Source: Sabellastarte sp. h YS-2021
Taxonomy: Eukaryota; Annelida; Polychaeta; Sabellida; Sabellidae
Direction: 5' to 3'
NCBI GenBank assembly: GCA_964017235.1
Contig: OZ024936.1
Location: forward strand, 15,662,496 to 15,726,495
Length of the DNA: 64,000 bases
Part shown: piece after piece, positions 1-61,971 of the stretch
How the letters are laid out: each line of letters starts with the position of its first letter
Position numbering within the stretch: the first letter of the stretch is position 1
Translations under genes and position numbers: made by a program
Notes under the pieces: generated by a model
What the model saw: only the letters and a program-made list of their open reading frames with translations
The model's database searches: none
What the model was told of the DNA's origin: nothing

Positions 1-413
1 AATAAACCCTTAGGTGAACAAGTTAACTTATTAGATGGTCATAAACCAAAAGCTGTCCATAATTTTTGAAGATCAACCCATATACTGGGGCTGTTAGATG
101 ACAAAATGATACCCAATATGACTGTCTAAGAGCCCCAAACAAGATTTTGCTTGAATTCTGCTTAACCTCAGACTATCAATGCCCAATGATGAATATTAAA
201 TCTCCACAGCTAGGAAACTCAAGCTCTGACAAGTAGGCTAAAAATACTTAGAAGTTGTGGCTTTTCATGATGCAGTAATATTATGGGGATGTTACATACT
301 ATAAGTGCATAAAAATCAACTCAAAAGCACAGGTATATTTTGCAGGTATGCTATTTACCCACAACCCACCTGTTGATTAATAATAACACTTATGGAACAA
401 TATGAAAGACTTA
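1..413 (+). repeat. Leftmost monomer in window
   Basis: A complete monomer of 413 bp whose start coincides with the window edge. It has the short CCCACCTGTTG form near its end. It does not match the dimer units to its right as closely as they match each other. The array clearly continues beyond the window on this side. Confidence 0.9.
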
Positions 414-2085
414 AATAAATCCTTAGGTGAACAAGTTAACTTATTAGATGGTCATAAATAAACGAAAAGCTGTCAATAATTTTTGAAGATCAAACCATAT
501 ACTGGGGCTGTTAGATGACAAAATGATACCAAATATGACCGTCTAAGTGCCCCAAGAGAGGGTTTGCTTGAATTCTGCGCAACCTCAGACTATCAATGCC
601 CAATGATGAATATTAAATCTCCCCATCTAGGAAACTCAATCTCTGACAAGTAGCCTAAAAATATTTAGAAGTTGTGGATTTTCATGACCACGTGTTATGA
701 TGGGGATGTTAAATACTATAAGTGCATAAAAATCAACTGAAAAGCCCAGGTATATTTTGAAGCTATGCTTTTTACCCACAACACACCTGTTGATTAATAA
801 TAACACTTATGGAACAATATGAAAGACTTAAATAAACCCTTATGTGAACAAGCTAACTTATTATAATTTCATAAATCAACAAAAGCTGTCATTAATTTTT
901 GAAGATCAAGTCATATACTTGGGCTGTTAGATGACAAAATGACACCAAATATGACCGTATAAGAGCCCCAAACAAGAGTTTGCTTCAATTCTGATTAACC
1001 TCAGACCATCAATGCCCAATGATGAATATTAAATTTCCCCAGCTAGGAAACTCAAGCTGTCACAAGTAGGCTAAAAATACTTAGAAGTACTGGCTTTTCA
1101 TGACCAAGTGTTATGATGGGGATGTTAGATACTATAAATGTATAAAAATCAACTCAAAAGCACAGGTGTATTTTGCAGGTATGCTATTTACCCACAACCC
1201 ACCTGTTGATTAATAATAACACTTATGGAACAATATGAAAGACTTAAATTAATCCTTAGGTGAACAAGTTAACTTATTAGATGGTCATAAATAAACGAAA
1301 AGCTGTCAATAATTTTTGAAGATCAAACCATATACTGGGGCTGTTAGATGACAAAATGATACCAAATATGACCGTCTAAGAGCCCAAAGAGAGGGTTTGC
1401 TTGAATTCTGCGCAACCTCAGACTATCAATGCCCAATGATGAATATTAAATCTCCCCATCTAGGAAACTCAATCTCTGACAAGTAGCCTAAAAATATTTA
1501 GAAGTTGTGGATTTTCATGACCACGTGTTATGATGGGGATGTTAAATACTATAAGTGCATAAAAATCAACTGAAAAGCCCAGGTATATTTTGAAGCTATG
1601 CTTTTTACCCACAACACACCTGTTGATTAATAATAACACTTATGGAACAATATGAAAGACTTAAATAAACCCTTAGGTGAACAAGCTAACTTATTATAAT
1701 TTCATAAATCAACAAAAGCTGTCATTAATTTTTGAAGATCAAGTCATATACTGGGGCTGTTAGATGACAAAATGACACCAAATATGACCGTATAAGAGCC
1801 CCAAACAAGAGTTTGCTTCAATTCTGATTAACCTCAGACCATCAATGCCCAATGATGAATATTAAATTTCCCCAGCTAGGAAACTCAAGCTGTCACAAGT
1901 AGGCTAAAAATACTTAGAAGTACTGGCTTTTCATGACCAAGTGTTATGATGGGGATGTTAGATACTATAAATGTATAAAAATCAACTCAAAAGCACAGGT
2001 ATATTTTGCAGGTATGCTATTTACCCACAACCCATCAAGGCCTGTTGATTAATAAAAACACTTATGGAACAATATGAAAGACTTA
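414..2085 (+). repeat. Dimeric HOR, two copies (833 and 839 bp)
   Basis: Copies 414-1246 and 1247-2085 each hold two monomer types. The first type has ATAAACGAAAAGCTG, ATCAAACCATA and CTGCGCAACCTC. The second has TTATAATTTCATAAATCAAC, AATGACACCAAA and GAAGTACTGGC. These variants recur at the same place in both copies and not elsewhere in the window. Differences between the copies are scattered single substitutions, for example TTATGTGAAC against TTAGGTGAAC and TACTTGGGC against TACTGGGGC. Confidence 0.9.
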
Positions 2086-4183
2086 AATAAACCTTTAGGT
2101 GAACAAGTTAACTTATTAGATGGTCATAAATAAAAGAAAAGCTGTCAATAATTTTTGAAGATCAACCCATATACTGGGGCTGTTAGATAACAGAATGATA
2201 CCAAATATGACCGTCTAAGAGCCCCAAGAGAGGGTTTGCTTGAATTCTATGTAACCTCATACTATCAATGCCCAATGATGAATATTAAATCTCCACAGCT
2301 AGGAAACTCAATCTCCGACAAGTAGCCTAAAAATATTTAGAAGTTGTGGATTTTCAGGACCAAGTGTTATTATGGGGATGTTAGATACTATAAGAACATC
2401 AAAATCAACTCAAAGGCACAGGTATATTTTGCAGATATGCTATTTACCCACAATCCACCAAGGGTTGTTGATTAATAAAAACACTTATGGAACAATATAA
2501 AAGACTTAAATAAACGATCAGGTGAACAAGCTAACTTATTAGATGGTCATATATAAACAAAAGCTGTCCTTAATTTTTGAAGATCAAGTCATATACTGGG
2601 GCTGTTAGATGACAAAATGATACCAAATATGACTGTCTAAGAGCCCCAAACAAGAGTTTGCTTGAATTCTGCTTAACCTCAGACTATCAATGCCCAATGA
2701 TGAATATTAAATCTCCACAGCTATGAAACTCAAGCTCTGACAAGTAGCCTAAAAATACTTAGAAGTTGTGGTTTTTCATGATCCAGTGTTATTATGTGGA
2801 TGTTACATACTACAAGTGCATAAATATCAACTCAAAAGCACAGGTATATTTTGCAGGTATGCTATTTACCCACAACCCACCTGTTGATTAATAATAACAC
2901 TTATGGAACAATATGAAAGACTTAAATAAACCCTTAGGTGAACAAGTTAACTTATTAGAATTTCATAAATAAACCAAAAGCTGTCAATAATTTTTGAAGA
3001 TCAACCAATATACTGGGGCTGTTAGATGACAAAATGATATCAAATATGACCGTCTAAGAGCCCCAAGAGAGGGTTTCCTTGAATTCTGCTTAACCTCAGA
3101 CTATCAATGCCCAATGAGGAATATTAAATCTCCCCAGCTAGGCAACTCAAGCTGTCACAAGTAGCCTAAAAATACTTAGTAGTTGTGGCTTTTCATGACC
3201 AAGTGTTATGATGCGGATGTTAGATACTATAAATGTATAAAAATCAACTCAAAAGCACAGGTATATTTTGCAGGTATGCTATTTACCCACAACCCATCAA
3301 GGCCTGTTGATTAATAAAAACACTTATGGAACAATATGAAAGACTTAAATAAACCTTTAGGTGAACAAGTTAACTGATTAGATGGTCATAAATAAAAGAA
3401 AAGCTGTCAATAATTTTTGAAGATCAACCCATATACTGGGGCTGTTAGATAATAGAATGATACCAAATATGACCATCTAAGAGCCCCAAGAGAGGGTTTG
3501 CTTGAATTCTATGTAACCTCATACTATCAATGCCCAATGATGAATATTAAATCTCCACAGCTAGGAAACTCAATCTCCGACAAGTAGCCTAAAAATATTT
3601 AGAAGTTGTGGATTTTTATGACCAAGTGTTATTATGCGGATGTTAGATACTATAAGAGCATCAAAATCAACTCAAAGGCACAGGTATATTTTGCAGATAT
3701 GCTATTTACCCACAATCCACCAAGGGTTGTTGATTAATAAAAACACTTATGGAACAATATAAAAGACTTAAATAAACGATCAGGTGAACAAGCTAACTTA
3801 TTAGATGGTCATAAATAAACAAAAGCTGTCCTTAATTTTTGAAGATCAAGTCATATACTGGGGCTGTTAGATGACAAAATGATACCAAATATGACTGTCT
3901 AAGAGCCCCAAACAAGAGTTTGCTTGAATTCTGGTTAACCTCAGACTATCAATGCCCAATGGGCATTAAATCTCCACAGCTATGAAACTCAAGCTCTGAC
4001 AAGTAGCCTAAAAATACTTAGAAGTTGTGGTTTTTCATGATCCAGTGTTATTATGTGGATGTTACATACTATAAGTGCATAAATATCAACTCAAAAGCAT
4101 AGGCATATTTTGCAGGTATGCTATTTACCCACAACCCACCTGTTGATTAATAATAACACTTATGGAACAATATGAAAGACTTA
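2086..4183 (+). repeat. Trimeric HOR of 1,262 bp, one full and one partial copy
   Basis: The first copy is 2086-3347. The second starts at 3348 and is cut short by the deletion in the monomer at 4184. Diagnostic variants repeating at 1,262 bp include AACCTTTAGGTG with ATAAAAGAAAAGC, GTTAGATAAC/GTTAGATAAT before AGAATGATACC, AAACGATCAGGTG, and AAAATGATATCAAATATGAC. In the second copy one monomer reads CCCAATGGGCATTAAAT (about 3955) where the usual text is CCCAATGATGAATATTAAAT, an additional small deletion. Confidence 0.88.
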
Positions 4184-4381
4184 AATAAACCCTTAGGTGA
4201 ACAAGTCAACTTATTGGAATTTCATAAATAAACCAAAAGCTGTCAATAATTTTTGAAGATCAACCAATATACTGGGGCTGTTAGATGACAAAATGATATC
4301 AAATATGACCTGCTATTTACCCACAACCCACCAAGGCCTGTTGATTAATAATAACACTTATGGAACAATATGAAAGACTTA
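4184..4381 (+). repeat. Truncated 198-bp monomer with internal deletion
   Basis: This monomer starts normally and runs to ATATCAAATATGACC at about 4310, then jumps directly to TGCTATTTACCCACAACC near the monomer end. The equivalent text in the preceding trimer copy (about 3036 onward) continues with GTCTAAGAGCCCC. About 220 bp, close to half a monomer, is missing. The flanking monomers are full length or nearly so, so this is a local event in one repeat. Confidence 0.92.
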
Positions 4382-4765
4382 AATAAACCCTTAGGTGAAC
4401 AAGTTAACTTATTAGATGGTTATAAATAAACCAAAAGCTATCAATAATTTTTGAAGATCAACCCATATACTGGGGCTGTTAGATGACAAAATGATACCAA
4501 ATATGACCGTCTAAGAGCCCAAACAGAGGGTTTGCCTCAATTCTACTTAACCTCAGACTATCAATGCCCAATGATGAATATTAAATGTCCCCAGCTGGGA
4601 AACTCAAGCTGTCACAAGTAGGCTAAAAATACTTAGAAGTTGTGGCTTTTCATGACCAAGTATTATGATGTGGATGTTAGATACTATAAAGGTATGGTAT
4701 TTACCTACAACCCACCAAGGCCTGTTGATTAATAATAACACTTATGGAACAATATGAAAGACTTA
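4382..4765 (+). repeat. Monomer with ~37-bp deletion
   Basis: At about 4687-4695 the text ATACTATAAA joins directly to GGTATGGTATTTACC. The usual stretch between them (TGTATAAAAATCAACTC, AAAGCACAGG and TATATTTTGCA) is absent, leaving a 384-bp monomer. It immediately follows the 198-bp deleted monomer, so two independent deletions lie side by side. Confidence 0.88.

Positions 4766-6961: not shown

Positions 6962-6990
<29 letters not shown>
6962..6990 (-). repeat. Microsatellite tail of SINE copy 1, about ten TAA units
   Basis: An uninterrupted run of ten TAA triplets (counting the T of the target site at 6961), then CAATAATAAAATAATAC. On the element's strand this is its 3' tail. The second SINE copy has seven triplets at the same place, which accounts for the 9-bp difference in spacing between the loci. 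Confidence 0.93.
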
Positions 6991-6993
<3 letters not shown>

Positions 6994-7226
6994 TAATAAA
7001 ATAATACTGCGCTCTTATATAGCCCTTTTTCTATTATTAGCTCAAAGAGCTTACACAGTTTTACCCCAGCAAGGATAGCTAACCTTGGTAACCTTACCTA
7101 TTGCTGCCATGCAAGGCGCAGAAGCCAGTATCCCTTAAAGCTGGGTACCCATATTTCCCCTGTTTGGAGAGAGGCACAGACCAGGTTAACATCTTGCCCA
7201 AGGATGTTATCCAACATGAAACAGTT

Positions 7227-7301
7227 GGCATCACTGAGGATCGAACCCACGAGCCTTGGATTATAAGTCCAACACCCTACCAACTGAGCCACATGAGATC
7301 C
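7227..7301 (-). other. tRNA-like SINE head with UAU anticodon position
   Basis: A 75-bp tRNA-length region with intact internal RNA polymerase III promoter boxes. The anticodon arm folds perfectly and the triplet in the anticodon position is TAT (isoleucine in a real tRNA). The acceptor ends do not pair (5' GGATCTC against 3' TGATGCC matches only at the outer two positions) and the T stem has a mismatch and a wobble. It is therefore a tRNA-derived promoter module and not a working tRNA gene. The parental tRNA cannot be fixed from this alone. Confidence 0.8.
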
Positions 7302-7304
7302 TAA

Positions 7305-7315
7305 GGTTGCTAGAT
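7305..7315. repeat. Right target-site duplication of SINE copy 1
   Basis: GGTTGCTAGAT, directly after the SINE head and its TAA linker, then the satellite resumes with GACAAAATGATACC. It is the partner of the site at 6951-6961. Confidence 0.75.
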
Positions 7316-8483: not shown

Positions 8484-11400
8484 AATAAACCCTTAGGTGA
8501 ACAAGCTAACTTATTAGATGGTCATAAATAAACAAAAGCTGTCATTAATTTTTGAAGATCAAGTCATATACTGGGGCTGTTAGATGACAAAATGATACCA
8601 AATATGACCGTCTAAGAGCCCCAAGAGAGGGTTTGCTTGAATTCTGCTTAACCTCAGACTATCAATGCCCAATGATGAATATTAAATCTCCCCAGCTTGG
8701 ACACTCAATCTCTGACAAGTAGGCTAAAAATACTTAGAAGTTGTGGATTTTCATGACCAAGTGTTATGATGGGGATGTTAGATACTATAAATGTATAAAA
8801 ATCAACTCAAAAGCACAGGTATATTTTGCAGGTATGCTATTTACCCACAACCCTCCAAGCCTGTTGATGAATAATAACACTTATGGAACAATATGAAAGA
8901 CTTAAATAAACCCTTAGGTGAACAAGCTAACTTATTAGATGGTCATAAATAAACAAAAGCTGTCAATAAGTTTTGATGATCAAGTCATATACTGGGGCTG
9001 TTAGATGACAAAATGATACCAAATATGACCGTCTAAGAGCCACAAGAGAGGGTTTGCTTGAATTCTGCGTAACCTCAGACTATCAATGCTCAATGATGAA
9101 TATTAAATCTCAACAGCTAGGAAACTCAATCTCCGACAAATAGCCTAAAAATATTTAGAAGTTGCCGATTTTCATGACCAAGTGTTATGATAGGGATGTT
9201 AGATACTATAAGTGCATAAAAATCAACTCAAAGGCACAGGTATAATTTGCAGATATGCTATTTACCCACAATCCACTAAGGGTTGTTGATTAATAAAAAC
9301 ACTCATGGAACAATATGAAAGACTTAAATAAACCCTTAGGTGAACAAACTAACTTATTCGATGGTCATAAATAAACAAAAGCTGTCATTAATTTTTGAAG
9401 ATCAAGTCATATACTGGGGCTGTTAGATGACAAAATGATACCAAATATGACCGTCTAAGAGCCCCAAGAGAGAGTTTACTTGAATTCTGCTTAACCTCAG
9501 ACTATCAATGCCCAATGATGAATATTAAATCTCCCCATCTAGCAAACTGAAGCTGTCACAAGTAGGCTAAAAATACTTAGAAGTTGTGGCTTTTCATGAC
9601 CAAGTGTTATTATGGGGATGTTATATACTATAAATGCATAAAAATCAACTCAAAGGCACATGTATATTTTGCAGATATGCTCTTTTCCCATAATCCTCTA
9701 AGGCCTGCTTATTAATAACAACACTTATGGAACAATATAAAAGACTTAAATAAACCCTTAGGTGAACAAGCTAACTTATTAGATGGTCATAAATAAACAA
9801 AAGCTGTCATTAATTTTTGAAGATCAAGTCATATACTGGGGCTGTTAGATGACAAAATGATACCAAATATGACCGTCTAAGAGCCCCAAGAGAGGGTTTG
9901 CTTGAATTCTGCATGACCTCAGACTATCAATGCCCAGTGATGAATATTAAATATCCACAGCTAGGAAACTCAATCTACGACAAGTAGCCTTAAAATATTT
10001 AGAAGTTCTGGATTTTCATGACGAATTGTTATTATGGGAATGTTAGATACTATAAGTGCATAAAAATCAACTCAAAGGCACAAGTATAATTTGCAGATAT
10101 GCTCTTTACTCAAAATCCACTAAGGTCTGTTGATCAATAACAACACTTATGGAACAATATAAAAGACTTAAATAAACCCTTAGGTGAACAAGCTGACTTA
10201 TTAGATGGTCATAAATAAACAAAAGCTGTCATTAATTTTTGAAGATCAAGTCATATACTGGGGCTTAGATGACAAAATGATACCAAATATGACCGTATAA
10301 GAGCCCCAAGAGAGAGTTTGCTTGAATTCTGCTTAACCTCAGACTATCAATGCCCAATGATGAATATTAAATCTCCCCAGCTTGGACACTCAATCTCTGA
10401 CAAGTAGGCTAAAAATACTTAGAAGTTGTGGATTTTCATGACCAAGTGTTATGATGTGGATGTTAGATACTATAAATGTATAAAAATCAACTCAAAAGCA
10501 CAGGTATATTTTGCTGGTATGCTATTTACCCACAACCCACCAAGCCTGTTGATGAATAATAACACTTATGGAACAATATGATAGACTTAAATAAACCCTT
10601 AGGCGAACAAGCTAACTTATTAGATGGTCATAAATAAACAAAAGCTGTCAATAAGTTTTGATGATCAAGTCATATACTGGGGCTGTTAGATGACAAAATG
10701 ATACCAAATATGACCGTCTAAGAGCCACAATAGAGGGTTTGCTTGAATTCTGCGTAACCTCAGACTATCAATGCTCAATGATGAATATTAAATCTCAACA
10801 GCTAGGAAACTCAATCTCGACAAGTAGCCTAAAAATATTTAGAAGTTGTGGATTTTCATGACCAAGTGTTATGATGGGGATGTTAGATACTATAAATGCA
10901 TAAAAATCAACTCAAAGGCACGGGTATAATTTGCAGATATGCTATTTACCCACAATCCACTAAGGGTTGTTGATTAATAAAAACACTTATGGAACAATAT
11001 GAAAGACTTAAATAAACCCTTAGGTGAACAAACTAACTTATTAGATGGTCATAAATAAACAAAAGCTGTCATTAATTTTTGAAGATCAAGTCATATACTG
11101 GGGCTGTTAGATGACAAAATGATACCAAATATGACAGTCTAAGAGCCCAAGAGAGGATTTGCTTGAATTCTGCGTAACCTCAGACTATCAGTGCCCAGGG
11201 ATGAATATTAAATATGCACAGCTAGGAAACTCAATCTCTGACAAGTAGCCTAAAAATATTTAGAAGTTGTGGATTTTCATGACCAAGTGTTATGATGGGG
11301 ATGTTAGATACTATAAGTGCATAAAATTCAACTCAAAGGCACAGGTATAATTTGCAGATATGCTATTTACCCACAATCCACTAAGGCCTGTTGATTAATA

Positions 11401-13905
11401 ACAACAATTATGGAACAATATAAAAGACTTAAAAAAACCCATAGCTGAACAAGCTGACTGATTACATGGTCATAAATAAACAAAAGCTGTCATTAATTTT
11501 TGAAGATCAAGTCATATACTGGGGCTGTTAGATGACAAAATGATACCAAATATGACCGTCTAAGAGCCCCAAGAGAGAGTTTACTTGAATTCTGCTTAAC
11601 CTCAGACTATCAATGCCCAATGATGAATATTAAATCTCCCCAGCTTGGACACTCAATCTCTGACAAGTAGGCTAAAAATACTTAGAAGTTGTGGATTTTC
11701 ATGACCAAGTGTTATGATGGGGATGTTAGATACTATAAATGTATAAAAATCAACTCAAAAGCACAGGTATATTTTGCAGGTATGCTATTTACCCACAACC
11801 CTCCAAGCCTGTTGATGAATAATAACACTTATGGAACAATATGAAAGACTTAAATAAACCCTTAGGTGAACAAGCTAACTTATTAGATGGTCATAAATAA
11901 ACAAAAGCTGTCAATAAGTTTTGATGATCAAGTCATATACTGGGGCTGTTAGATGACAAAATGATACCAAATATGACCGTCTAAGAGCCACAAGAGAGGG
12001 TTTGCTTGAATTCTGCGTAACCTCAGACTATCAATGCTCAATGATGAATATTAAATCTCAACAGCTAGGAAACTCAATCTCTGACAAATAGCCTAAAAAT
12101 ATTTAGAAGTTGCCGATTTTCATGACCAAGTGTTATGATAGGGATGTTAGATACTATAAGTGCATAAAAATCAACTCAAAGGCACAGGTATAATTTGCAG
12201 ATATGCTATTTACCCACAATCCACTAAGGGTTGTTGATTAATAAAAACACTTATGGAACAATATGAAAGACTTAAATAAACCCTTAGGTGAACAAACTAA
12301 CTTATTCGATGGTCATAAATAAACAAAAGCTGTCATTAATTTTTGAAGATCAAGTCATATACTGGGGCTGTTAGATGACAAAATGATACCAAATATGACC
12401 GTCTAAGAGCCCCAAGAGAGAGTTTACTTGAATTCTGCTTAACCTCAGACTATCAATTCCCAATGCTGAATATTAAATCTCCCCATCTAGCAAACTGAAG
12501 CTGTCACAAGTAGGCTAAAAATACTTAGAAGTTGTGGCTTTTCATGACCAAGTGTTATTATGGGGATGTTATATACTATAAATGCATAAAAATCAACTCA
12601 AAGGCACATGTATATTTTGCAGATATGCTCTTTTCCCATAATCCTCTAAGGCCTGCTTATTAATAACAACACTTATGGAACAATATAAAAGACTTAAATA
12701 AACCCTTAGGTGAACAAGCTAACTTATTAGATGGTCATAAATAAACAAAAGCTGTCATTAATTTTTGAAGATCAAGTCATATACTGGGGCTGTTAGATGA
12801 CAAAATGATACCAAATATGACCGTCTAAGAGCCCCAAGAGAGGGTTTGCTTGAATTCTGCATGACCTCAGACTATCAATGCCCAGTGATGAATATTAAAT
12901 ATCCACAGCTAGGAAACTCAATCTACGACAAGTAGCCTTAAAATATTTAGAAGTTGTGGATTTTCATGACGAATTGTTATTATGGGAATGTTAGATACTA
13001 TAAGTGCATAAAAATCAACTCAAAGGCACAAGTATATTTTGCAGATATGCTCTTTAATCAAAATCCACTAAGGTCTGTTGATCAATAACAACACTTATGG
13101 AACAATATAAAAGACTTAAATAAACCCTTAGGTGAACAAGCTGACTTATTAGATGGTCATAAATAAACAAAAGCTGTCATTAATTTTTGAAGATCAAGTC
13201 ATATACTGGGGCTTAGATGACAAAATGATACCAAATATGACCGTATAAGAGCCCCAAGAGAGAGTTTGCTTGAATTCTGCTTAACCTCAGACTATCAATG
13301 CCCAATGATGAATATTAAATCTCCCCAGCTTGGACACTCAATCTCTGACAAGTAGGCTAAAAATACTTAGAAGTTGTGGATTTTCATGACCAAGTGTTAT
13401 GATGGGGATGTTAGATACTATAAATGTATAAAAATCAACTCAAAAGCACAGGTATATTTTGCAGGTATGCTATTTACCCAAAACCCACCAAGCCTGTTGA
13501 TGAATAATAACACTTATGGAACAATATGATAGACTTAAATAAACCCTTAGGTGAACAAGCTAACTTATTAGATGGTCATAAATAAACAAAAGCTGTCAAT
13601 AAGTTTTGATGATCAAGTCATATACTGGGGCTGTTAGATGACAAAATGATACCAAATATGACCGTCTAAGAGCCACAATAGAGGGTTTGCTTGAATTCTG
13701 CGTAACCTCAGACTATCAATGCTCAATGATGAATATTAAATCTCAACAGCTAGGAAACTCAATCTCGACAAGTAGCCTAAAAATATTTAGAAGTTGTGGT
13801 TTTTCATGCCCAAGTGTTATTATGGGGATGTTAGATACTATAAATGCATAAAAATCAACTCAAAGGCACGGGTATAATTTGCAGATATGCTATTTACCCA
13901 CAATC
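8484..13905 (+). repeat. Heptameric HOR of 2,948 bp, one full and one partial copy
   Basis: Copy 1 is 8484-11431 and copy 2 runs from 11432 to about 13905. Diagnostic pairs exactly 2,948 bp apart are TTATTCGATGG (9355 and 12303), CTGCATGACCTC (9910 and 12858) and ATATGATAGAC (about 10577 and 13525). The first monomer of copy 2 is a hybrid: its left part (AAAACCCATAGCTG, GATTACATGG) belongs to another type and only its right part (CCCAGCTTGGACAC) matches copy 1. Copy 2 ends early: at about 13905 it switches from the expected AAGGGTTGTTG to AAGGCCTGTTG and the next pentamer begins. Confidence 0.9.
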
Positions 13906-13958
13906 CACTAAGGCCTGTTGATTAATAACAACAATTATGGAACAATATAAAAGACTTA

Positions 13959-27223: not shown

Positions 27224-27234
27224 GGCTGTTAGAT
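27224..27234. repeat. Left target-site duplication of SINE copy 2
   Basis: GGCTGTTAGAT, identical to the left site of copy 1 and at the same monomer position, so both copies descend from one insertion. Confidence 0.75.
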
Positions 27235-27254
27235 AATAATAATAATAATAATAA
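27235..27254 (-). repeat. Microsatellite tail of SINE copy 2, about seven TAA units
   Basis: Seven TAA triplets (counting the T at 27234) before CAATAATAAAATAATAC, three fewer than in copy 1. Confidence 0.93.
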
Positions 27255-39300: not shown

Positions 39301-39878
39301 AAATAAACAAAAGCTGTCAATAAGTTTTGATGATCAAGTCATATACTGGGGCTGTCAGATGACAAAATGATACCAAATATGACCGTCTAAGAGCCCCGAG
39401 AAAGAGTTTGCTTGAATTCTGCTTAACCTCAGACTATCAATGCCCAATGATGAACATTAAATCTCCAAAGCTAGGAAACGCAAGCTCTGACAAGTATGCT
39501 AAAAATACTTAGAAGTTGTGGCTTTTCATGATCAAGTGTTATTATGGGGATGTTACATACTATAAGTGCATAAAAATCAACTCAGAAGCACAGGTATATT
39601 TTGCAGGTATGCTATTTACCCACAACCCACCTGTTGATTAATAATAACACTTATGGAACAATGTAAAAGACTTAAATAAACCCTTAGGTGAACAAGCTAA
39701 CTTATTAGAATTTCATAAATAAACAAAAGCTGTCATTAATTTTTGAAGATCAAGTCATATACTGGGGATGTTAGATGACAAAATGATACCAAATATAACC
39801 GTATAAGAGCCCCAAGAGAGAGTTTGCTTGAATCTGCTTAACCTCAGACTATCAATGCCCAATGATGAATATTAAATC
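32330..39878 (+). repeat. 7,549-bp tandem duplication, copy 1
   Basis: Eighteen monomers. Private variants occur again exactly 7,549 bp downstream: CTCTCACAAG (32351 and 39900), GAATTCGGCGTAACC (34388 and 41937) and AAGCTTACTTATTAG (about 35511 and 43060). The left limit is placed by the crossover in the joint monomer near 39835-39878, minus 7,549. The spans I compared differ by isolated substitutions only. Confidence 0.92.
35490..39878 (+). repeat. Strict 837-bp dimeric HOR, first run
   Basis: Type X (TTAGAATTTCAT, ATATAACCGTATAAG, TTGAATCTGC, CCCCCCAGCTAGG, GCTGCCCCAAG) alternates with type Y (usually GTTTTGATGATC, GCTGTCAGATG, CCCCGAGAAAGAG, CCAAAGCTAGGAAACGC). The AATTTC of type X falls at 35524, 36361, 37198, 38035, 38872 and 39709, each 837 bp apart. 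At about 37530-37650 and 38370-38490 the Y left part is replaced by one with AACCCATAGGTG and GATTACATGG, so some Y units are themselves hybrids. Confidence 0.93.
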
Positions 39879-49400: not shown

Positions 49401-50989
49401 ATATACTGGGGCTGTTAGATGACAAAATGATACCAAATATGACCGTATAAGAGCCCCAAGAGAGAGTTTGCTTCAATTCTGCTTAAGATCAGACTATCAA
49501 TGCCCAATGATGAATATTAAATCCCCCCAGCTAGGAAACTCAAGCTGCCCCAAGTAGGCTAAAAATACTTAGAAGTTGTGACTTTTCATGACCAAGGGGA
49601 TGTTAGATACTATAAATGTATAAAAATCAACTCGAAAGCACAGGTATATTTTGCAAGTATGCTATTTACACACAACCGACCAAGGTCTGTTGATTAATCA
49701 TAACACTTATGGAACAATATGAAAGACTTAAATAAACCCTTAGGTGAACAAGCTAACTTATTAGATGGTCATAAATAAACAAAAGCTGTCAATAAGTTTT
49801 GATGATCAAGTCATATACTGGGGCTATCAGATGACAAAATGATACCAAATATGACCGTCTAAGAGCCCCGAGAAAGAGTTTGCTTGAATTCTGCTTAACC
49901 ACAGACTATCAATGCCCAATGATGAATATTAAATCTCCAAAGCTAGGAAACGCAAGCTCTGACAAGTAGGCTAAAAATACTTAGAAGTTGTGGCTTTTCA
50001 TGATCAAGTGTTATTATGGGGATGTTACATACTATAAGTGCATAAAAATCAACTCAAAAGAACAGGTATAATTTGCAGATATGCTATTTACCCACAATCC
50101 GCTAAGGCCTGTTGATTAATAACAACAATTATGGAACAATATAAAAGACTTAAATAAACCCATAGGTGAACAAGCTAACTGATTACATGGTCATAAATAA
50201 ACAAAAGCTGTCATTAATTTTTGAAGATCAAGTCAGATACTGGGGCTGTTAGATGACAAAATGATACCAAATATGACCGTCTAAGAGCCCCAAGAAAGAG
50301 TTTGCTTGAATTCTGCTTAACCTCAGACTACCAATGCCCAATGATGAATATTAAATCTCCAAAGCTAGGAATCACAAGCTCTGACAAGTAGGCTAAAAAT
50401 ACTTAGAAGTTGTGGCTTTTCATGATCAAGTGTTATTATGGGGATGTTACATACTATAAGTGCATAAAAATCAACTCAAAAGCACAGGTATATTTTGCAG
50501 GTATGCTATTTACTCACAACCCACCTGTTGATTAATAATAACACTTATGGAACAATGTAAAAGACTTAAATAAACCCTTAGGTGAACAAGCTAACTTATT
50601 AGAATTTCATAAATAAACAAAAGCTGTCATTAATTTTTGAAGATCAAGTCATATACTGGGGCTGTTAGATGACAAAATGATACCAAATATAACCGTATAA
50701 GAGCCCCAAGAGAGAGTTTGCTTGAATCTGCTTAACCTCAGACTATCAATGCCCAATGATGAATATTAAATAACCCCAGGTAGGAAACGCAAGCTGCCCC
50801 AAGTAGGCTAAAAATACTTAGAAGTTGTGGCTTTTCATGACCAAGTGTTATGATGGGGATGTTAGATACTATAAATGTATAAAAATCAACTCCAAAGCAC
50901 AGGTATATTTTGCAAGTATTCTATTTACACACAACCCACCAAGGCCTGTTGATTAATCATAACACTTATGGAACAATATGAAAGACTTA
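49400..50989 (+). repeat. Mixed hybrid monomers between dimer and tetramer blocks
   Basis: About four monomers combining X, Y and other types: CTGCTTAAGATCAG at about 49481, a 12-bp deletion giving CATGACCAAGGGGATG at about 49587, a Y unit with AAAAGAACAGG and AATCCGCTAAGG at about 50055-50105, and TAAATAACCCCAGGTAGG at about 50768. No fixed period was seen. Confidence 0.75.
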
Positions 50990-53900
50990 AATAAACCCTT
51001 AGGTGAACAAGCTAACTTATTAGATGGTCATAAATAAACAAAAGCTGTCAATAAGTTTTGATGATAAAGTCATATACTGGGGCTGTTAGATGACAAAATG
51101 ATACCAAATATGACCGTATAAGAGCCCCAAGAGAGAGTTTGCTTCAATTCTGCTTCACCTCATACTATCAATGCCCAATGATGAATATTAAATCTCACCA
51201 GCTAGGAAACTCAAGCTGCTACAAGTAGGCTAAAAATACTTAGAAGTTGTGGCTTTTCATGACCAAGTGTTATGATGGGGATGTTAGATACTATAAATAT
51301 ATAAAAATCAACTCGAAAGCACAGGTTTATTTTGCAGGTATGCTACTTACCCACAACCCACCAAGCCTGTTGATGAATAATAACACTTATGGAACAATAT
51401 GAAAGACTTAAATAAACCCTTAGGTGAACAAGCTAACTTATTAGATGGTCATAAATAAACAAAAGCTGTCAATAAGTTTTGATGATCAAGTCATATACTG
51501 GGGCTGTTAGATGACAAAATAATACCAAATATGACCGTCTAAGAGCCCCAAGAGAGGGTTTGCTTGAATTCTGCGTAACCGCAGACTATCAATGCCTAGT
51601 AATGAATATTAAATATCCACATCTAGGAAACTCAATCTCTGACAAGTAGCCTAAAAATATTTAGAAGTTGTCGATTTTCATGACGAAGTGTTATGATGGG
51701 GATGTTAGATACTATAAGTGCATAAAAATCAACTGAAAGGCACAGGTATAATTTGCAGATATGCTATTTACCCACAATCCACTAAGGCCTGTTGATTAAT
51801 AACAACAATTATGGAACAATATAAAAGACTTAAATAAACCCATAGGTGAACAAGCTAACTGATTAGATGGTCATAAATAAACAAAAGCTGTCATTAATTT
51901 TTGAAGATCAAGTCATATACTGGGGCTGTTAGATGACAAAATGATACCAAATATGACCGTCTCAGAGCCCGGAGAAAGAGTTTGCTTGAATTCTGCTTAA
52001 CCTCGGACTATCAATGCCCAATGATGAATATTAAATCTCCAAAGCTAGGAAACGCAAGCTCTGACAAGTAAGCTAAAAATACTTAGAAGTTGTGGCTTTT
52101 CATGATCAAGTGTTATTATGGGGTTGTTACATACTATAAGTGCATAAAAATCAACTCAAAAGCACAGGTATATTTTACAGGTATGCTATTTACCCACAAC
52201 CCACCTGTTGATTAATAATAACACTTATGGAACAATGTAAAAGACTTAAATAAACCCTTAGGTGAACAAGCTAACTTATTAGAATTTCATAAATAAACAA
52301 AAGCTGTCATTAATTTTTGAAGATCAAGTCATATACTGGGGCTGTTAGATGACAAAATGATACCAAATATAACCGTATAAGAGCCCCAAGAGAGAGTTTG
52401 CTTGAATCTGCTTATCCTCAGACTATCATTGCTCAATTATGAATATTAAATCCCCCCAGCTAGGAAACTCAAGCTGCCCCAAGTAGGCTAAAAATACTTA
52501 GAAGTTGTGGCTTTTCATGACCAAGTGTTATGATGGGGATGTTAGATACTATAAATGTATAAAAATCAACTCGAAAGCACAGGTATATTTTGCAAGTATG
52601 CTATTTACACACAACCCACCTAGGCCTGTTGATTAATCATAACACTTATGGAACAATATGAAAGACTTAAATAAACACTTAGGTGAACAAGCTAACTTAT
52701 TAGATGGTCATAAATAAACAAAAGCTGTCATTAATTTTTGAAGATCAAGTCATATACTGGGGCTGTTAGATGACAAAATGATACCAAATATGACCGTATA
52801 AGGGCCCCAAGAGAGAGTTTGCTTCAATTCTGCTTCACCTCAGACTATCAATGCCCAATGATGAATATTAAATCTCACCAGCTAGGAAACTCAAGCTGTT
52901 ACAAGTAGGCTAAAAATACTTAGAAGTTGTGGCTTTTCATGACCTAGTGTTATGATGGGGATGTTAGATACTATAAATATATAAAAATCAACTCGAAAGC
53001 ACAGGTTTATTTTGCAGGTATGCTATTTACCCACAACCCACCAAGCCTGTTGATGAATAATAACACTTATGGAACAATATGAAAGACTTAAATAAACCCT
53101 TAGGTGAACAAGCTAACTTACTAGATGGTCATAAATAAACAAAAGCTGTCAATAAGTTTTGATGATCAAGTCATATACTGGGGCTGTTAGATGACAAAAT
53201 AATACCAAATATGACCGTCTAAGAGCCCCAAGAGAGGGTTTGCTTGAATTCTGCGTAACCGCAGACTATCAATGCCTAGTGATGAATATTAAATCTCCAC
53301 AGCTAGGAAACTCAATCTCTGACAAGTAGCCTAAAAATATTTAGAAGTTGTCGATTTTCATGACGAAGTGTTATGATGCGGATGTTAGATACTATAAGTG
53401 CATAAAAATCAACTGAAAGGCACAGTTATTATTTGCAGATATGCTATTTACCCACAATCCACTAAGGCCTGTTGATTAAAAACAACAATTATGGAACAAT
53501 ATAAAAGACTTAAATGAACCCATAGGTGAACAAGCTAACTGATTAGATGGTCATAAATTAAAAAAAGCTGTCATTAATTTTTGAAGATCAAGTCATATAC
53601 TGGGGCTGTTAGATGACAAAATGATACCAAATATGACCGTCTAAGAGCCCCGAGAAAGAGTTTGCTTGAATTCTGGTTAACCTCAGACTATCAATGCCCA
53701 ATGATGAATATTAAATCTCCAAAGCTAGGAAACGCAAGCTCTGACAAGTAAGCTAAAAATACTTAGAAGTTGTGGCAGTTCAAGATCAAGTGTTATTATG
53801 GGGATGTTACATACTATAAGTGCATAAAAATCAACTCAAAAGCACAGGTATATTTTACAGGTATGCTATTTACCCACAACCCACCTGTTGATTAATAATA

Positions 53901-54350
53901 ACACTTATGGAACAATGTAAAAGACTTAAATAAACCCTTAGGTGAACAAGCTAACTTATTAGAATTTCATAAATAAACAAAAGCTGTCATTAATTTTTGA
54001 AGATCAAGTCATATACTGGGGCTGTTAGATGACAAAATGATACCAAATATAACCGTATAAGAGCCCCAAGAAAGAGTTTGCTTGAATCTGCTTATCCTCA
54101 GACTATCATTGCTCAATTATGAATATTAAATCCCCCCAGCTAGGAAACTCAAGCTGCCCCAAGTAGGCTAAAAATACTTAGAAGTTGTGGCTTTTCATGA
54201 CCAAGTGTTATGATGGGGATGTTAGATACTATAAATGTATAAAAATCAACTCGAAAGCACAGGTATATTTTGCAAGTATGCTATTTACACAAAACCCACC
54301 TAGGCCTGTTGATTAATCATAACACTTATGGAACAATATGAAAGACTTAA
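50990..54350 (+). repeat. Tetrameric HOR of 1,680 bp, two copies
   Basis: Copies are about 50990-52669 and 52670-54350. Pairs 1,680 bp apart include GTAACCGCAGACTATC (51576 and 53256), CTGCTTCACCTCA (about 51150 and 52830), AAAATAATACC (about 51516 and 53196) and CTTATCCTCAGACTATCATTG (about 52411 and 54091). The CGCAGAC type returns 2,518 bp (six monomers) later at 55774, so the same types were reused in the next block. Confidence 0.9.
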
Positions 54351-55190
54351 ATAAACCCTTAGGTGAACAAGCTAACTTATTAGATGGTCATAAATAAACA
54401 AAAGCTGTCATTAATTTTTGAAGATCAAGTCATATACTGGGGCTGTTAGATGACAAAATGATACCAAATATGACCGTCTAAGAGCCCCAAGAGAGAGTTT
54501 ACTTGAACTCTGCTTAACCTCAGACTATCAATGCCCAATGATGAATATTAAATCTCTCCGTCTAGCAAAATCAAGCTGTCCCAAGTAGGCTAAAAATGCT
54601 TAGAAGTTGTGGCTTTTTATGACCAGGTGTTATGATGGGGATGTTATATACTATAAATGCATAAAAATCAACTCAAAAGCACAGGTATATTTTGCAGGTA
54701 TGCTATTTACCCACAACCCACCTGTTGATTAATAATAACACTTATGGAACAACATGAAAGACTTAAATAAACCCTTAGGTGAACAAGTTAACTTATTAGA
54801 TGGTCATAAATAAACCAAAATATGTCAATACTTTTTGAAGATCAACCCATACACTGGTGCTGTTAGATGACAAAATGATACCAAATATGACCGTCTAAGA
54901 TCCCCAAAAGAGGGTTTGCTTGAATTCTGCGTAATCTCAGACTATCAATGCCCAATGATGAATATTAAATCTTCACAGCTAGGAAACTCAATCTCCAACA
55001 AGTAGCCTAAAAATATTTATAAGTTGTGAATTTTCATGACCAAGTGTTACGATGGGGATGTTAGATACTATAAGTGCATAAAAATCAACTCAAAGGCACA
55101 GGTATAATTTGCAGATATGCTATTTACCCACAATCCACTAAGGGTTGTTGATTAATAAAAACACTTATGGAACAATATAAACGACCTAAA
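54351..55190 (+). repeat. Two monomers unrelated to their neighbours
   Basis: Variants such as CTCTCCGTCTAGC (about 54554), AAAATATGTCAATACTTTTTG (about 54819) and TCTCCAACAAG (about 54990) do not fit either flanking HOR. They most resemble monomers near 23250-23900 (CTCTCCATCTAGC, TTTATAAGTTGTG), so they may be a transferred or surviving piece of that type. Confidence 0.7.
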
Positions 55191-55299: not shown

Positions 55300-58060
55300 A
55301 TACCAAATATGACCGTATAAGAGCCCCAAGAGAGAGTTTGCTTCAATTCTGCTTCACCTCAACTATCAATGCCCAATGATGAATATTAAATCTCACCAGC
55401 TAGGAAACTCAAGCTGTTACAAGTAGGCTAAAAATACTTAGAAGTTGTGGCTTTTCATGACCAAGTGTTATGATGGGGATGTTAGATACTATAAATATAT
55501 AAAAATCAACTCGAAAACACAGGTTTATTTTGCAGGTATGCTATTTACCCACAACCCACCAAGCCTGTTGATGAATAATAACACTCATGGAACAATATGA
55601 AAGACTTAAATAAACCCTTAGGTGAACAAGCTAACTTATTAGATGGTCATAAATAAACAAAAGCTGTCAATAAGTTTTGATGATCAAGTCATATACTGGG
55701 GCTGTTAGATGACAAAATAATACCAAATATGACCGTCTAAGAGCCCCAAGAGAGGGTTTGCTTGAATTCTGCGTAACCGCAGACTATCAATGCCTAGTGA
55801 TGAATATTAAATATCCACAGCTAGGAAACTCAATCTCTGACAAGTAGCCTAAAAATATTTAGAAGTTGTCGATTTTCATGACGAAGTGTTATGATGGGGA
55901 TGTTAGATACTATAAGTGCATAAAAATCAACTGAAAGGTACAGGTATAATTTGCAGATATGCTATTTACCCACAATCCACTAAGGCCTGTTGATTAATAA
56001 CAACAATTATGGAACAATATAAAAGACTTAAATAAACCCATAGGTGAACAAGCTAACTGATTAGATGGTCATAAATAAAAAAAAGCTGTCATTAATTTTT
56101 GAAGATCAAGTCATATACTGGGGCTGTTAGATGACAAAATGATACCAAATATGACCGTCTAAGAACCCGAGAAAGAGTTTGCTTGAATTCTGCTTAACCT
56201 CAGACTATCAATGCCCAATGATGAATATTAAATCTCCAAAGCTAGGAAACGCAAGCTCTGACAAGTAGGCTAAAAATACTTAGAAGTTATGGCTTTTCAT
56301 GATCAAGTGTTATTATGGGGATGTTACATACTATAAGTGCATAAAAATCAACTCAAAAGCACAGGTATATTTTACAGGTATGCTATTTACCCACAACCCA
56401 CCCGTTGATTAATAATAACACTTATGGAACAATGTAAAAGACTTAAATAAACCCTTAGGTGAACAAGCTAACTTATTAGAATTTCATAAATAAACAAAAG
56501 CTGTCATTAATTTTTGAAGATCAAGTCATATACTGGGGCTGTTAGATGACAAAATGATACCAAATATAACAGTATAAGAGCCCCAAGAGAGAGTTTGCTT
56601 AAATCTGCTTATCCTCAGACTATCATTGCTCAATTATGAATATTAAATCCCCCCAGCTAGGAAACTCAAGCTGCCCCAAGTAGGCTAAAAATACTTAGAA
56701 GTTGTGGCTTTTCATGACCAAGTGTTATGATGGGGATGTTAGACACTATAAGTGCATAAAAATCAACTCAAAGGCACAGGTATAATTTGCAGATATGCTA
56801 TTTACCCACAATCCACTAAGGGTTGTTGATTAATAAAAACACTTATGGAACCATATAAAAGACCTAAATAAACTCTTAGGTTAACAAGCTAACTTATTAG
56901 ATGGTCATAAATAAACAAAAGCTGTCATTAAATTTTGAAGATCAAGTCATATACTGGGGCTGTTAGATGACAAAATGATACCAAATATGACCGTCTAAGA
57001 GCCCCACGAGAATGTTTGCTTGAATTCTGCGTAACCTCAGACTATCAATGCCCAATGATGAATATTAAATCTCCACTGCTAGGAAACTCAATCTCTGACA
57101 AGTAGCCTAAAAATATTTAGGTGAACAAGCTAACTTATTAGATGGTCATAAATAAACAAAAGCTGTCATTAAATTTTGAAGATCAAGTCATATACTGGGG
57201 CTGTTAGATGACAAAATGATACCAAATATGAACGTCTAAGAGCCCCAAGAAAGAGTTTGCTTGAATTCTGCTTAACCTTAGACTATCAATGCCCAATGAT
57301 GAATATTAAATCTCCACAGCTAGGAAACGCAAGCTCTGAGAAGTAGGCTAAAAATACTTAGAAGTTGTAGCTTTTCATGATCAAGTGTTATTATGGGGAT
57401 GTTAGATACTGTAAGCGCATAAAAATCAACTCAAAGGCACAGGTATAATTTTCAGATATGCTATTTACCCACAATCCACTAAGGCTTGTTGATTAATAAA
57501 AACACTTATGGAACAATATAAAAGACTTAAATAAACCCATAGGTGAACAAGCTAACTGATTACATGGTCATAAATAAACAAAAGCTGTCATTAATTTTTG
57601 AAGATCAAGTCATATACTGGGGCTGTTAGATGACAAAATGATACCAAATATGACCATCTAAGAGCCCCAAGAAACAGTTTGCTTGAATTCTGCTTCACCT
57701 CAGACTATCAATGCCCAATGATGAATATTAAATCTCCACATCTAGGAAACGCAAGCTCTGACAAGTAGGCTAAAAATACTTAGAAGTTGTGGCTTTTCAT
57801 GATCAAGTGTTATTATGGGGATGATACATACTATAAGTGCATAAAAATCAACTCAAAAACACAGGTATATTTTGCAGGTATGCTATTTACCCATAACCCA
57901 CCTGTTGATTAATAAAAACACTTATGGAACAATATAAAAGACTTAAATAAACCCTTAGGTGAACAAGCTAACTTATTAGAATTTCATAAATAAACAAAAG
58001 CTGTCATTAATTTTTGAAGATCAAGTCATATACTGGGGCTGTTAGATGACAAAATGATAC
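55300..58060 (+). repeat. 2,759-bp HOR, copy 1
   Basis: It pairs with 58,060 onward through AAAATAATACC (55714 and 58472), CCATATAAAAGACC (56851 and 59610), AACTCTTAGGTTAAC (about 56870 and 59629), the truncated-monomer joint (57121 and 59880) and CGTATCAGAG (58071 and 60830). The period is about 6.6 monomers because one monomer in it is truncated. The outer limits are approximate. Confidence 0.88.
56862..57120 (+). repeat. Truncated 259-bp monomer in copy 1 of the 2,759-bp HOR
   Basis: The monomer runs normally to CCTAAAAATATTTAG and then passes straight into GTGAACAAGCTAAC of the next monomer. The last part of the unit (from AAGTTGTGG to AAACCCTTAG) is missing. The join lies in a shared TTAG, so a short homology may have guided the deletion. 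Confidence 0.9.
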
Positions 58061-60820
58061 CAAATATAACCGTATCAGAGCTCCAAGAGAGAGTTTGCTT
58101 GAATTCTGCTTAACCTCAGACTATCAATGCCCAATGATGAATATTAAATCTCCCCAGCTAGGAAACTCAAGCTGTTACAAGTAGGCTAAAAATACTTAGA
58201 AGTTGTGGCTTTTCATGACCAAGTGTTATGATGGGGATGTTAGATACTATAAATATATAAAAATCAACTCGAAAGCACAGGTTTATTTTGCAGGTATGCT
58301 ATTTACCCACAACCCACCAAGCCTGTTGATGAATAATAACACTTATGGAACAATATAAAAGACTTAAATAAACCCTTAGGTGAACAAGCTAACTTATTGT
58401 ATGGTCATAAATAAACAAAAGCTGTCAATAAGTTTTGATGATCAAGTCATATACTGGGGCTGTTAGATGACAAAATAATACCAAATATGACCGTCTAAGA
58501 GCCCCAAGGGAGGGTTTGCTTGAATTCTGCTTAACCTCAGACTATCAATGCCCAATGATGAATATTAAATCTCCAAAGCTAGGAAACTCAATCTCTGACA
58601 AGTAGCCTAAAAATATTTAGAAGTTGTCGATTTTCATGACGAAGTGTTATGATGGGGATGTTAGATACTATAAGTGCATAAAAATCAACTGAAAGGCACA
58701 GGTATAATTTGCAGATATGCTATTTACCCACAATCCACTAAGGCCTGTTGATTAATAACAACAATTATGGAACAATATAAAAGACTTAAATAAACCCATA
58801 GGTGAACAAGCTAACTGATTAGATGGTCATAAATAAACAAAAGCTGTCATTAATTTTTGAAGATCAAGTCATATACTGGGGCTGTTAGATGACAAAATGA
58901 TACCAAATATGACCATCTAAGAGCCCCGAGAAAGAGTTTGCTTGAATTCTGCTTAACCTCAGACTATCAATGCCCAATGATGAATATTAAATCTCCAAAG
59001 CTAGGAAACGCAAGCTCTGACAAGTAGGCTAAAAATACTTAGAAGTTATGGCTTTTCATGATCAAGTGTTATTATGGGGATGTTACATACTATAAGTGCA
59101 TAAAAATCAACTCAAAAGCACAGGTATATTTTACAGGTATGCTATTTACCCACAACCCACCCGGTGATTAATAATAACACTTATGGAACAATGTAAAAGA
59201 CTTAAATAAACCCTTACGTGAACAAGCTAACTTATTAGAATTTCATAAATAAACAAAAGCTGTCATTAATTTTTGAAGATCAAGTCATATACTGGGGCTG
59301 TTAGATGACAAAATGATACCAAATATAACAGTATAAGAGCCCCAAGAGAGAGTTTGCTTGAATCTGCTTATCCTCAGACTATCATTGCTCAATTATGAAT
59401 ATTAAATCCCCCCAGCTAGGAAACTCAAGCTGCCCCAAGTAGGCTAAAAATATTTAGAAGTTGTGGCTTTTCATGACCAAGTGTTATGATGGGGATGTTA
59501 GATACTATAAGTGCATAAAAATCAACTCGAAAGCACAGGTATAATTTGCAGATATGCTATTTACCCACAATCCACTAAGGGTTGTTGATTAATAAAAACA
59601 CTTATGGAACCATATAAAAGACCTAAATAAACTCTTAGGTTAACAAGCTAACTTATTAGATGGTCATAAATAAACAAAAGCTGTCATTAAATTTTGAAGA
59701 TCAAGTCATATACTGGGGCTGTTAGATGACAAAATGATACCAAATATGACCGTCTAAGAGCCCCACGAGAATGTTTGCTTAAATTCTGCGTAACCTCAGA
59801 CTATCAATGCCCAATGATGAATATTAAATCTCCACTGCTAGGAAACTCAATCTCTGACAAGTAGCCTAAAAATATTTAGGTGAACAAGCTAGCTTATTAG
59901 ATGGTCATAAATAAACAAAAGCTGTCATTAAATTTTGAAGATCAAGTCATATACTGGGGCTGTTAGATGACAAAATGATACCAAATATGAACGTCTAAGA
60001 GCCCCAAGAAAGAGTTTGCTTGAATTCTGCTTAACCTTAGACTATCAATGCCCAATGATGAATATTAAATCTCCACAGCTAGGAAATGCAAGCTCTGAGA
60101 AGTAGGCTACAAATACTTAGAAGTTGTGGCTTTTCATGATCAAGTGTTATTATGGGGATGTTAGATACTGTAAGCGCATAAAAATCAACTCAAAGGCACA
60201 GGTATAATTTTCAGATATGCTATTTACCCACAATCCACTAAGGCTTGTTGATTAATAAAAACACTTATGGAACAATATAAAAGACTTAAATAAACCCATA
60301 GGTGAACAAGCTAACTGATTACATGGTCATAAATAAACAAAAGCTGTCATTAATTTTTGAAGATCAAGTCATATACTGGGGCTGTTAGATGACAAAATGA
60401 TACCAAATAGGACCATCTGAGAGCCCCAAAAAAGAGTTTGCTTGAATTCTGCTTCACCTCAGACTATCAATGCCCAATGATGAATATTAAATCTCCACAT
60501 CTAGGAAACGCAAGCTCTGACAAGTAGCCTAAAAATACTTAGAAGTTGTGGCTTTTCATGATGAAGTGTTATTATGGGGATGTTACATACTATAAGTGCA
60601 TAAAAATCAACTCAAAAACACAGGTATATTTTGCAGGCATGCTATTTACCCACAACCCACCTGTTGATTAATAAAAACACTTATGGAACAATATAAAAGA
60701 CTTAAATAAACCCTTAGGTGAACAAGCTAACTTATTAGAATTTCATAAATAAACAAAAGCTGTCATTAATTTTTGAAGATCAAGTCATATACTGGGGCTG
60801 TTAGATGACAAAATGATACC
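58061..60820 (+). repeat. 2,759-bp HOR, copy 2
   Basis: Second copy, with scattered differences from the first (AAGCTAGCTTATTAG for AAGCTAACTTATTAG near 59886; CTTAAATTCTGC for CTTGAATTCTGC near 59778). Similarity continues for a short way past 60,820, so the two copies overlap in the shared monomer type at their border. Confidence 0.88.
59621..59879 (+). repeat. Truncated 259-bp monomer in copy 2 of the 2,759-bp HOR
   Basis: Same joint as at 57,120, 2,759 bp away. The deletion therefore occurred before this unit was duplicated. Confidence 0.9.
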
Positions 60821-61971
60821 AAATATAACCGTATCAGAGCCCCAAGAGAGAGTTTGCTTGAATTCTGCTTAACCTCAGACTATCAATGCCCAATGATGAA
60901 TATTAAATCTCCCCAGCTAGGAAACTCAAGCTGTTACAAGTAGGCTAAAAATACTTAGAAGTTGTGGCTTTTCATGACCAAGTGTTATGATGGGGATGTT
61001 AGATACTATAAATGTATAAAAATCAACTCGAAAGCACAGGTATATTTTGCAAGTATGCTATTTACCCACAACCCACCAAGGCCTGTTGATTAATCATAAC
61101 ACTTATGGAACAATATGAAAGACTTAAATAAACCCTTAGGTGAACAAGCTAACTTATTAGATGGTCATAAATAAACAAAAGCTGTCATTAATTTTTGAAG
61201 ATCAAGTCATATACTGGGGCTGTTAGATGACAAAATGATACCAAATATGACCGTCTAAGAGCCCCAAGAGAGAGTTTGCTTGAATTCTGCGTAACCTCAG
61301 ACTATCAATGCCCAATAATGAATATTAAATCTCCACAGCTAGGAAACTCAATCTCTGACAAGTAGCCTAAAAATATTTAGAAGTTGTAGTTTTTCATGAC
61401 CAAATGTTATTATGGGGATGTTAGATACTATAAGTGCATAAAAATCAACTCAAAAGCACAGGTATATTTTGCAGGTATGCTATTTACCCACAACCCACCT
61501 GTTGATTAATAATAACACTTATGGAACAATATGAAAGACTTAAATAAACCATTAGGTGAACAAGTCAACTTATTAGATGGTCATAAATAAACCAAAATCT
61601 GTCAATAATTTTTGAAGATCAACCCATATACTGGGGCTGTTAGATGACAAAATGATACCAAATATGACCGTCTAAGAGCCCCAAGAAAGAGTTTGCTTGA
61701 ATTCTGCTTAACCTCAGACTATCAATGCCCAATGATGAATATTAAATCTCCTCAGCTTGGAAACGCAAGCTCTGACAAGTAGGCTAAAAATACTTAGAAG
61801 TTGTGGCTTTTCCTGATCAAGTGTTATTATGTTGATGTTACATACTATAAGTGCATAAAAATCAACTCAAAAGCACAGGTATATTTTGCAGATATGCTAT
61901 TTACCCACAACCCACCAAGGCCGGTTGATTAATAATAACACTTATGGAACAATATGAAAGACTTAAATAAA
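60821..61971 (+). repeat. Last monomers and right edge of the array
   Basis: About three monomers of mixed type, the last starting at 61543 (AATAAACCATTAGG). It has CAGCTTGGAAACGC, TTTTCCTGATC and TATGTTGATG variants and a CCGGTTGATT near its end. The satellite stops at AGACTTAAATAA and non-repeated DNA starts with AATGGCGGATCGCG. The break is at the usual monomer boundary. No target-site duplication or mobile-element end is visible. Confidence 0.9.

Follow-up and report, generated by a model that had tools for sequence, protein, structure and literature searches.

Classical centromeric arrays of higher-order repeats are usually dominated by one period, and the array examined here, in Sabellastarte sp. 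h YS-2021, appears to change its period every few kilobases. An initial annotation of the window (the whole stretch of 64,000 nucleotides analysed) listed ten repeat sizes lying side by side, each few-kb stretch with its own, and attributed them to many local amplifications and not to one homogenising process. The question raised by this locus is thus whether such a patchwork is real, and whether it calls for more than a single process.

Array and monomer

1..61971, + strand: satellite array, direct copies of a monomer of ~421 bp, 33.7–35.3% GC in 2-kb windows

Tandem Repeats Finder reported a monomer period of 421–422, and an nhmmer profile made from 19 monomers bounded by exact anchor copies gave 151 monomer matches, every one on the + strand, spanning 5–61968 of the window with no profile match beyond 61968. 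The left window end is still inside the array; the right array end lies at ~61971 and is followed by non-satellite DNA. Mean identity between monomers is 91.6% (10,727 pairs with >200 shared columns), a divergence of ~8.5%, and clustering at 4% divergence yields 36 monomer types. The head-to-tail arrangement of monomers from one family (151 matches on one strand) places the array among satellite DNAs with higher-order repeats, and its multimer copies are 0.03–2.1% apart compared with ~8.5% for the monomers within them.

No sub-repeat was found inside the monomer (best self-offset identity 33%), and the tandem consensus offers little coding potential, its longest open stretch being only 44 codons. 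CpG is heavily depleted in the array (observed/expected 0.20 over 1–61971), which may reflect long-standing methylation. A single monomer gave no match to phages in a distant-mode search, and one 42-base satellite pattern had no exact match in viral contigs or prokaryote genome contigs, among which near records may be absent. A literature search found no 421-bp satellite with higher-order repeats, a result that does not prove the satellite to be unpublished.

Right flank

61972..64000, exons on the - strand: non-satellite flank with two laccase-like multicopper oxidase exons (PF00394, 8.2e-22, exons joined)
62384-62539 and 63324-63457, - strand: the oxidase exons, with borders assigned by eye on splice signals

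The best solved-structure match of the oxidase exons is the laccase 1v10 (3.1e-16, eight doubtful residues included). The gene runs toward the array, with no further exon recognised in the window, which leaves two readings: the satellite occupies an intron of >62 kb, or it replaces the gene end. A splice-acceptor-like sequence on the - strand (61963-61991) lies ~20 bp outside the array border, followed by a frame that reaches a stop eight codons on, within the satellite; with this possible eight-residue border exon included, the Pfam score is 79.1 bits, compared with 78.4 bits before, an uninformative change. The flank also holds a tRNA-like sequence at ~62820-62915 (- strand), seen by eye and without an ARAGORN or Rfam call. 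By themselves, the introns recognised by eye, the SINE-like element described below and the layout of the gene suggest a eukaryotic source, probably an animal.

Multimer blocks

All ten distances of the initial annotation are real: for each there is at least one 1-kb bin in which it is the commonest, or joint commonest, spacing above zero between a 40-mer and its next identical copy. Block spans and copy divergences, taken from likelihood tracts, are as follows.

309..2088, + strand: 833-bp dimer block, 0.96% between copies
1924..4520, + strand: 1,262-bp trimer block, 1.9 copies, 1.76%, offset drifting from 1262 to 1457
8518..13913, + strand: 2,948-bp heptamer block, 1.8 copies, 0.65%
13871..23341, + strand: 2,095-bp pentamer block, 4.5 copies, 0.33%
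24057..26561, + strand: 1,182-bp trimer block, 1.44%
27894..32262, + strand: 2,111-bp pentamer duplication, 0.22% (5 differences in 2,258)
30470..33523, + strand: 1,266-bp trimer block, 0.45% (8 differences in 1,788)
32284..47412, + strand: 7,549-bp 18-mer tandem duplication with 837-bp dimers inside, 0.03% (2 differences in 7,580)
35148..39878, + strand: 837-bp dimer block, first copy, 1.69%
42866..49408, + strand: 837-bp dimer block, second copy with its extension, 7.8 units, 1.66%
50062..54477, + strand: 1,680-bp tetramer block, 2.08%
55362..61041, + strand: 2,759-bp heptamer block, 1.40%

In the 400 columns outside the tracts divergence is 5.5–12.8%, a range that leaves aside the second 837-bp row and, for the 20,264-bp row, its left side (without flank). 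Some units carry lesions of their own. The second copy of the 1,262-bp trimer is interrupted by a truncated monomer (4188-4384) with a phase break at 4311-4313; one monomer of the 1,182-bp unit has an internal deletion of ~80 bp, with matches ending at profile position 320 (23596, 24777, 25959); and one monomer of the 2,759-bp unit is shortened by ~180 bp across a monomer border, the profile jumping from 251 to 7 at 57117-57120 and 59876-59879.

The ten lengths resolve into six multimer orders of 2, 3, 4, 5, 7 and 18 monomers, spread over about a dozen blocks that are 1.8–15 kb long. Several are the same order made from different monomer types, namely the dimers of 833 and 837 bp, trimers of 1182 and 1262 bp, pentamers of 2095 and 2111 bp and heptamers of 2948 and 2759 bp, leaving the 1680-bp tetramer and the 7549-bp 18-mer. 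The 837-bp period is present twice because the 7,549-bp unit, dimers included, was duplicated. Ten lengths stand side by side as claimed, but only six orders, and the list had overlooked the 1,266-bp trimer and a copy displaced by 20,264 bp. Measured from the first base of each to its last, the tandem blocks take up 53,152 of 61,971 bases (~86%); seven stretches of >200 bp belong to no tandem block, the longest being 4521-8517.

The 837-bp dimers at 35148-39878 lie within the 7,549-bp unit, the arrangement that defines local-nested higher-order repeats. The array differs from a classical homogenised multimer array with one dominant many-copy unit, its largest single-period share being 0.25 in this 62-kb edge portion. 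Copy numbers are highest for the dimer (7.8) and the pentamer (4.5), and stand at about two in most blocks.

Recurrence of near-identical monomers

The recurrence is far from that expected by chance: there are 55 runs of at least three consecutive monomer pairs at ≥97% identity, whereas 500 permutations of monomer order gave 1.1 on average and never more than 5 (145 of the 151 matches, those >300 bp), and the longest run is 18 against at most 4 in the shuffles. Pairs at ≥97% identity become rarer with distance, their fraction being 0.123 at lags 1–5 and 0.000 at lags 101–150. Adjacent monomers never reach this identity, with 0 of 144 pairs in the 145-match list (maximum 95.6%) and 0 of 143 in a second pair list, against ~7 expected from the overall frequency of 510/10,440; among monomers two apart, 22 of 141 pairs exceed 97%.

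Over the whole array even lags exceed odd lags in similarity by 0.0076, compared with a standard deviation of 0.0007 when monomers were shuffled 1000 times. An ancient dimer was considered as the source of this excess and rejected. Without 34.3–49.8 kb the excess is gone (-0.0007, 108 monomers), and it is therefore due to the 837-bp region alone.

Junctions and crossovers

Monomer phase is kept at 142 of the 150 junctions between matches. The 8 out-of-phase junctions represent four kinds of event: two deletions, the ~80-bp internal deletion (in three copies) and one SINE-like insertion (in two). At the two deletions the profile matches on either side have 3 and 4 bases in common (4311-4313; 57117-57120, again at 59876-59879), which suggests microhomology.

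39679..40097, + strand: junction monomer of the 18-mer duplication, a chimera with its left part from 47228-47647 and its right part from 32129-32548

The junction monomer differs from its right-part donor, at the unit start, in 10 columns, all within alignment columns 31–165, and from its left-part donor, at the unit end, in 21 columns, all within columns 197–399; the two donors differ at precisely these 31 columns (10 + 21). The junction monomer thus matches the left-part donor exactly through column 196 and the right-part donor from column 166 on. The 7,549-bp tract is longer than its unit by 31 bp, which places the crossover within a stretch of ~31 bp. Such a clean two-donor chimera is the pattern of one in-register homologous exchange. 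At the 1,266-bp and 2,759-bp junctions the differences are also one-sided, with a few exceptions. At the 833-, 1,262-, 2,111- and 2,948-bp junctions the pattern is obscured by few informative columns, a missing or altered end donor, or a position at a monomer edge.

Could the assembly itself have produced the near-identical copies? The 7,549-bp and 2,095-bp blocks might be spurious duplications, or copies from different haplotypes placed one after the other, as the mere 2 differences in 7,580 bp and the long runs of difference-free 100-base windows in the pentamers would allow. We consider this unlikely, given that the 7,549-bp copies meet, at an internal phase, in a chimeric monomer with two donors, and that the other ten tracts differ by 0.22–2.08%, so that the patchwork stays even without these two blocks.

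Rolling-circle amplification of excised circles followed by reinsertion would give several copies per unit, a pattern shown by the pentamer with its 4.5 copies and by the dimer blocks. Most blocks have only about two copies, however, one exchange explains the 18-mer copy, and reinsertion would have to be in phase almost always; we thus regard such an origin of the blocks as very unlikely.

Five of 22 borders fall at profile positions 125–136, beside the stretch where the monomer is most conserved (bins 80–120), in a count that covers eleven blocks, the 1,266-bp, second 837-bp and 20,264-bp rows being excluded. A crossover hot spot was not accepted, because few sites near the conserved bins 80–120 can mark a border.

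SINE, displaced copy and order of events

6966..7310, - strand: tRNA-headed SINE-like insertion within a monomer (ARAGORN tRNA-Ile at 7226-7300; profile gap 6965-7296; borders approximate, by eye)
27239-27573, - strand: second SINE-like copy
27233..30177, + strand: displaced copy of 6969-9912 at an offset of 20,264, SINE included, 33 differences in 2,945 (1.12%), left end set by hand

The SINE-like element has a tail of ATA triplets, and Rfam gave one match at its gathering threshold, to the tRNA in one SINE copy. Mismatches in the displaced copy number 3 of 294 in the SINE body and 29 of 2,612 in the adjoining satellite, and the two have thus diverged alike. Since both SINE copies have common satellite surroundings, they represent one insertion spread by duplication, and since both copies carry the SINE, its insertion predates the 20,264-bp copying.

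Further events can be placed in order, their ages being relative only. The 837-bp dimers (1.7%) were already in place when the 7,549-bp duplication (0.03%) copied them, and the 2,111-bp duplication (0.22%), which overlaps the displaced copy (1.12%), is the younger of the two given equal substitution rates. The youngest event, the 7,549-bp duplication, is nearly base-resolved. Many local amplifications, as initially proposed, that took place at different times are supported by the unequal copy divergences, the nested 837-bp dimers and the fall of near-identical pairs with distance.

One process or many

We simulated a neutral process in which sequences underwent point mutation and gained or lost k monomers at a time by in-register duplication or deletion, with the mutation rate tuned towards the observed identity, under eight step-size laws over two simulation sets (five each, two common to both) and in windows of 145 monomers. 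Simulated windows had on average 5.2–7.5 (set one) or 6.2–8.6 (set two) distinct periods, where the array has 8. The commonest single period took a share of 0.21–0.38 (0.80 if only single-monomer steps were permitted) against 0.25 in the array, coverage was 0.48–0.81 against 0.76, and mean identity 0.900–0.919 against 0.915. One local-exchange process with variable step size is all that the patchwork needs. That it speaks against a single homogenising process does not follow, as one random unequal-exchange process gives a similar number of periods and a similar largest-period share.

We therefore favour, at a probability of roughly 0.8, a single-family satellite that is continually rewritten by out-of-register homologous exchange of local blocks. 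Sister chromatids would cross over unequally, or replication-based template switching would lead to the same result. Every event would copy a whole number of monomers (2, 3, 4, 5, 7, 18, and ~48 for the displaced copy), preserve monomer phase and leave a chimeric junction monomer, with whole-monomer deletions presumably occurring at other times. As events would differ in place and time, a stretch would have the period of its latest event, with older blocks inside younger ones, and rare deletions and the SINE insertion would be carried along by later duplications. Phase preservation, one clean chimeric junction, nesting and unequal divergences are seen directly in the array; we infer the enzymology, the deletions and a randomness of place and size without need of function.

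Evidence for exchange at this level of confidence comes from the in-phase junctions (142/150), the 7,549-bp chimera, the divergences of 0.03–2.1%, the decay of similarity and the simulations. Counting against it are the lack of any adjacent pair at ≥97%, the high coverage, the rarity of the even-odd excess without homology preference, the four junctions at which the chimeric pattern is obscured, and the 1,262-bp and 2,948-bp blocks, which have fewer than two full copies. A coverage as high as 0.76 arose in 5–29% of runs without homology preference and in 57% with it (second set), and the even-odd excess in at most 1.2% without, identity-matched or not, and in 13–15% with. Homology-guided exchange is thus the best fit among the models tried, a hint and not a test.

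Zero adjacent pairs at ≥97% occurred in 2.6–13.3% of runs under models with single-monomer steps (1.2–9.8% if identity-matched; second set), and in 0 of 40 runs for each of the two smallest-step models (first set). One reading of this is that exchange has a minimum step of two monomers, with no single-monomer duplications even though steps of 2, 3, 4 and 5 occur. If true, it would suggest that sister-repeat misalignment is constrained, physically or through repair, to offsets of at least ~0.8 kb. We hold it to be quite unlikely, as models with this minimum give zero adjacent pairs in just 5.1% and 12.5% of runs, and the rate is hardly lower without it (2.6%, 10.3% and 13.3%).

Selection for monomer combinations, through binding sites or kinetochore function, might instead set the block periods. 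No support for this was found, with 0 exact matches to the CENP-B box consensus on either strand of the whole window. Only some mammalian satellites have such a box, and it is hence not required for a centromeric satellite. The coexistence of six orders within 62 kb, and the comparable patchwork obtained under neutral simulation, make a selective origin of the periods highly improbable.

The form of exchange is less easily specified. Instead of reciprocal crossing-over, the duplications may stem from break-induced replication or from template switching behind a stalled fork, and would then be favoured over deletions; this version differs from our preferred explanation only in enzymology and has the rest in common with it. 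Break-induced replication has been proposed for nested human multimers (PMC8997354), and would yield an identical in-phase chimeric junction. Nothing in this array separates it from crossing-over, however, and a deletion leaves no second copy readable in one sequence. We regard a fork-based origin as a serious possibility at somewhat less than even odds.

Comparison with known systems

A neutral unequal-exchange model, the break-induced replication model and disordered monomers at array edges are all presented in PMC8997354, together with a layer of human centromere 8 that mixes 4-, 7- and 8-mers with an 11-mer. The present array resembles that alpha-satellite in its intermixed multimer orders of related monomers and in disorder toward array edges (PMC8997354). 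In centromere 8, monomers within a multimer may be 50–70% alike and a 177-kb layer consists of one near-identical 7-mer (PMC8997354), whereas the 421-bp monomers here are ~91.5% alike and their blocks have mostly about two and at most about eight copies. The contrast drawn initially with classical arrays was accordingly too strong, as human centromeres have mixed-order layers and disordered edges (PMC8997354), and the window holds an array edge.

The 837-bp dimers in the 18-mer are comparable to the local-nested higher-order repeats of HiCAT (PMC10053651), in which a sub-unit is amplified in a larger unit; there, however, the nesting sits in the canonical unit of the array (PMC10053651), and this array is without a dominant unit. 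Similar to the orangutan centromere patchwork, neighbouring blocks can be read as independent expansions (PMC12428378), although in orangutan these are three to four blocks, 80–90% alike (PMC12428378), as opposed to about a dozen of 1.8–15 kb here. Brachypodium centromere satellites likewise have multimer blocks highly variable in size and local bursts (PMC10910784), but they form a plant satellite at CENH3-mapped centromeres (PMC10910784), whereas this array is known from the sequence of one window. In Salicaceae, multimers occur in both centromeric and non-centromeric arrays (PMC12046899). Since mixed-order blocks and disordered edges have already been described in apes and a grass, this kind of structure is known.

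Implications

The array is confirmed as a patchwork, mostly ordinary but unusually legible, and is a clear example of a known mode of repetitive-DNA evolution. Its value lies in a compact array edge at which duplication events are readable one by one and in their relative order, one crossover being located to within ~30 bp in monomers with 31 differing alignment columns, and with the SINE as an independent marker. It thus provides a useful test bed for models of satellite multimer origin and overturns none of them.
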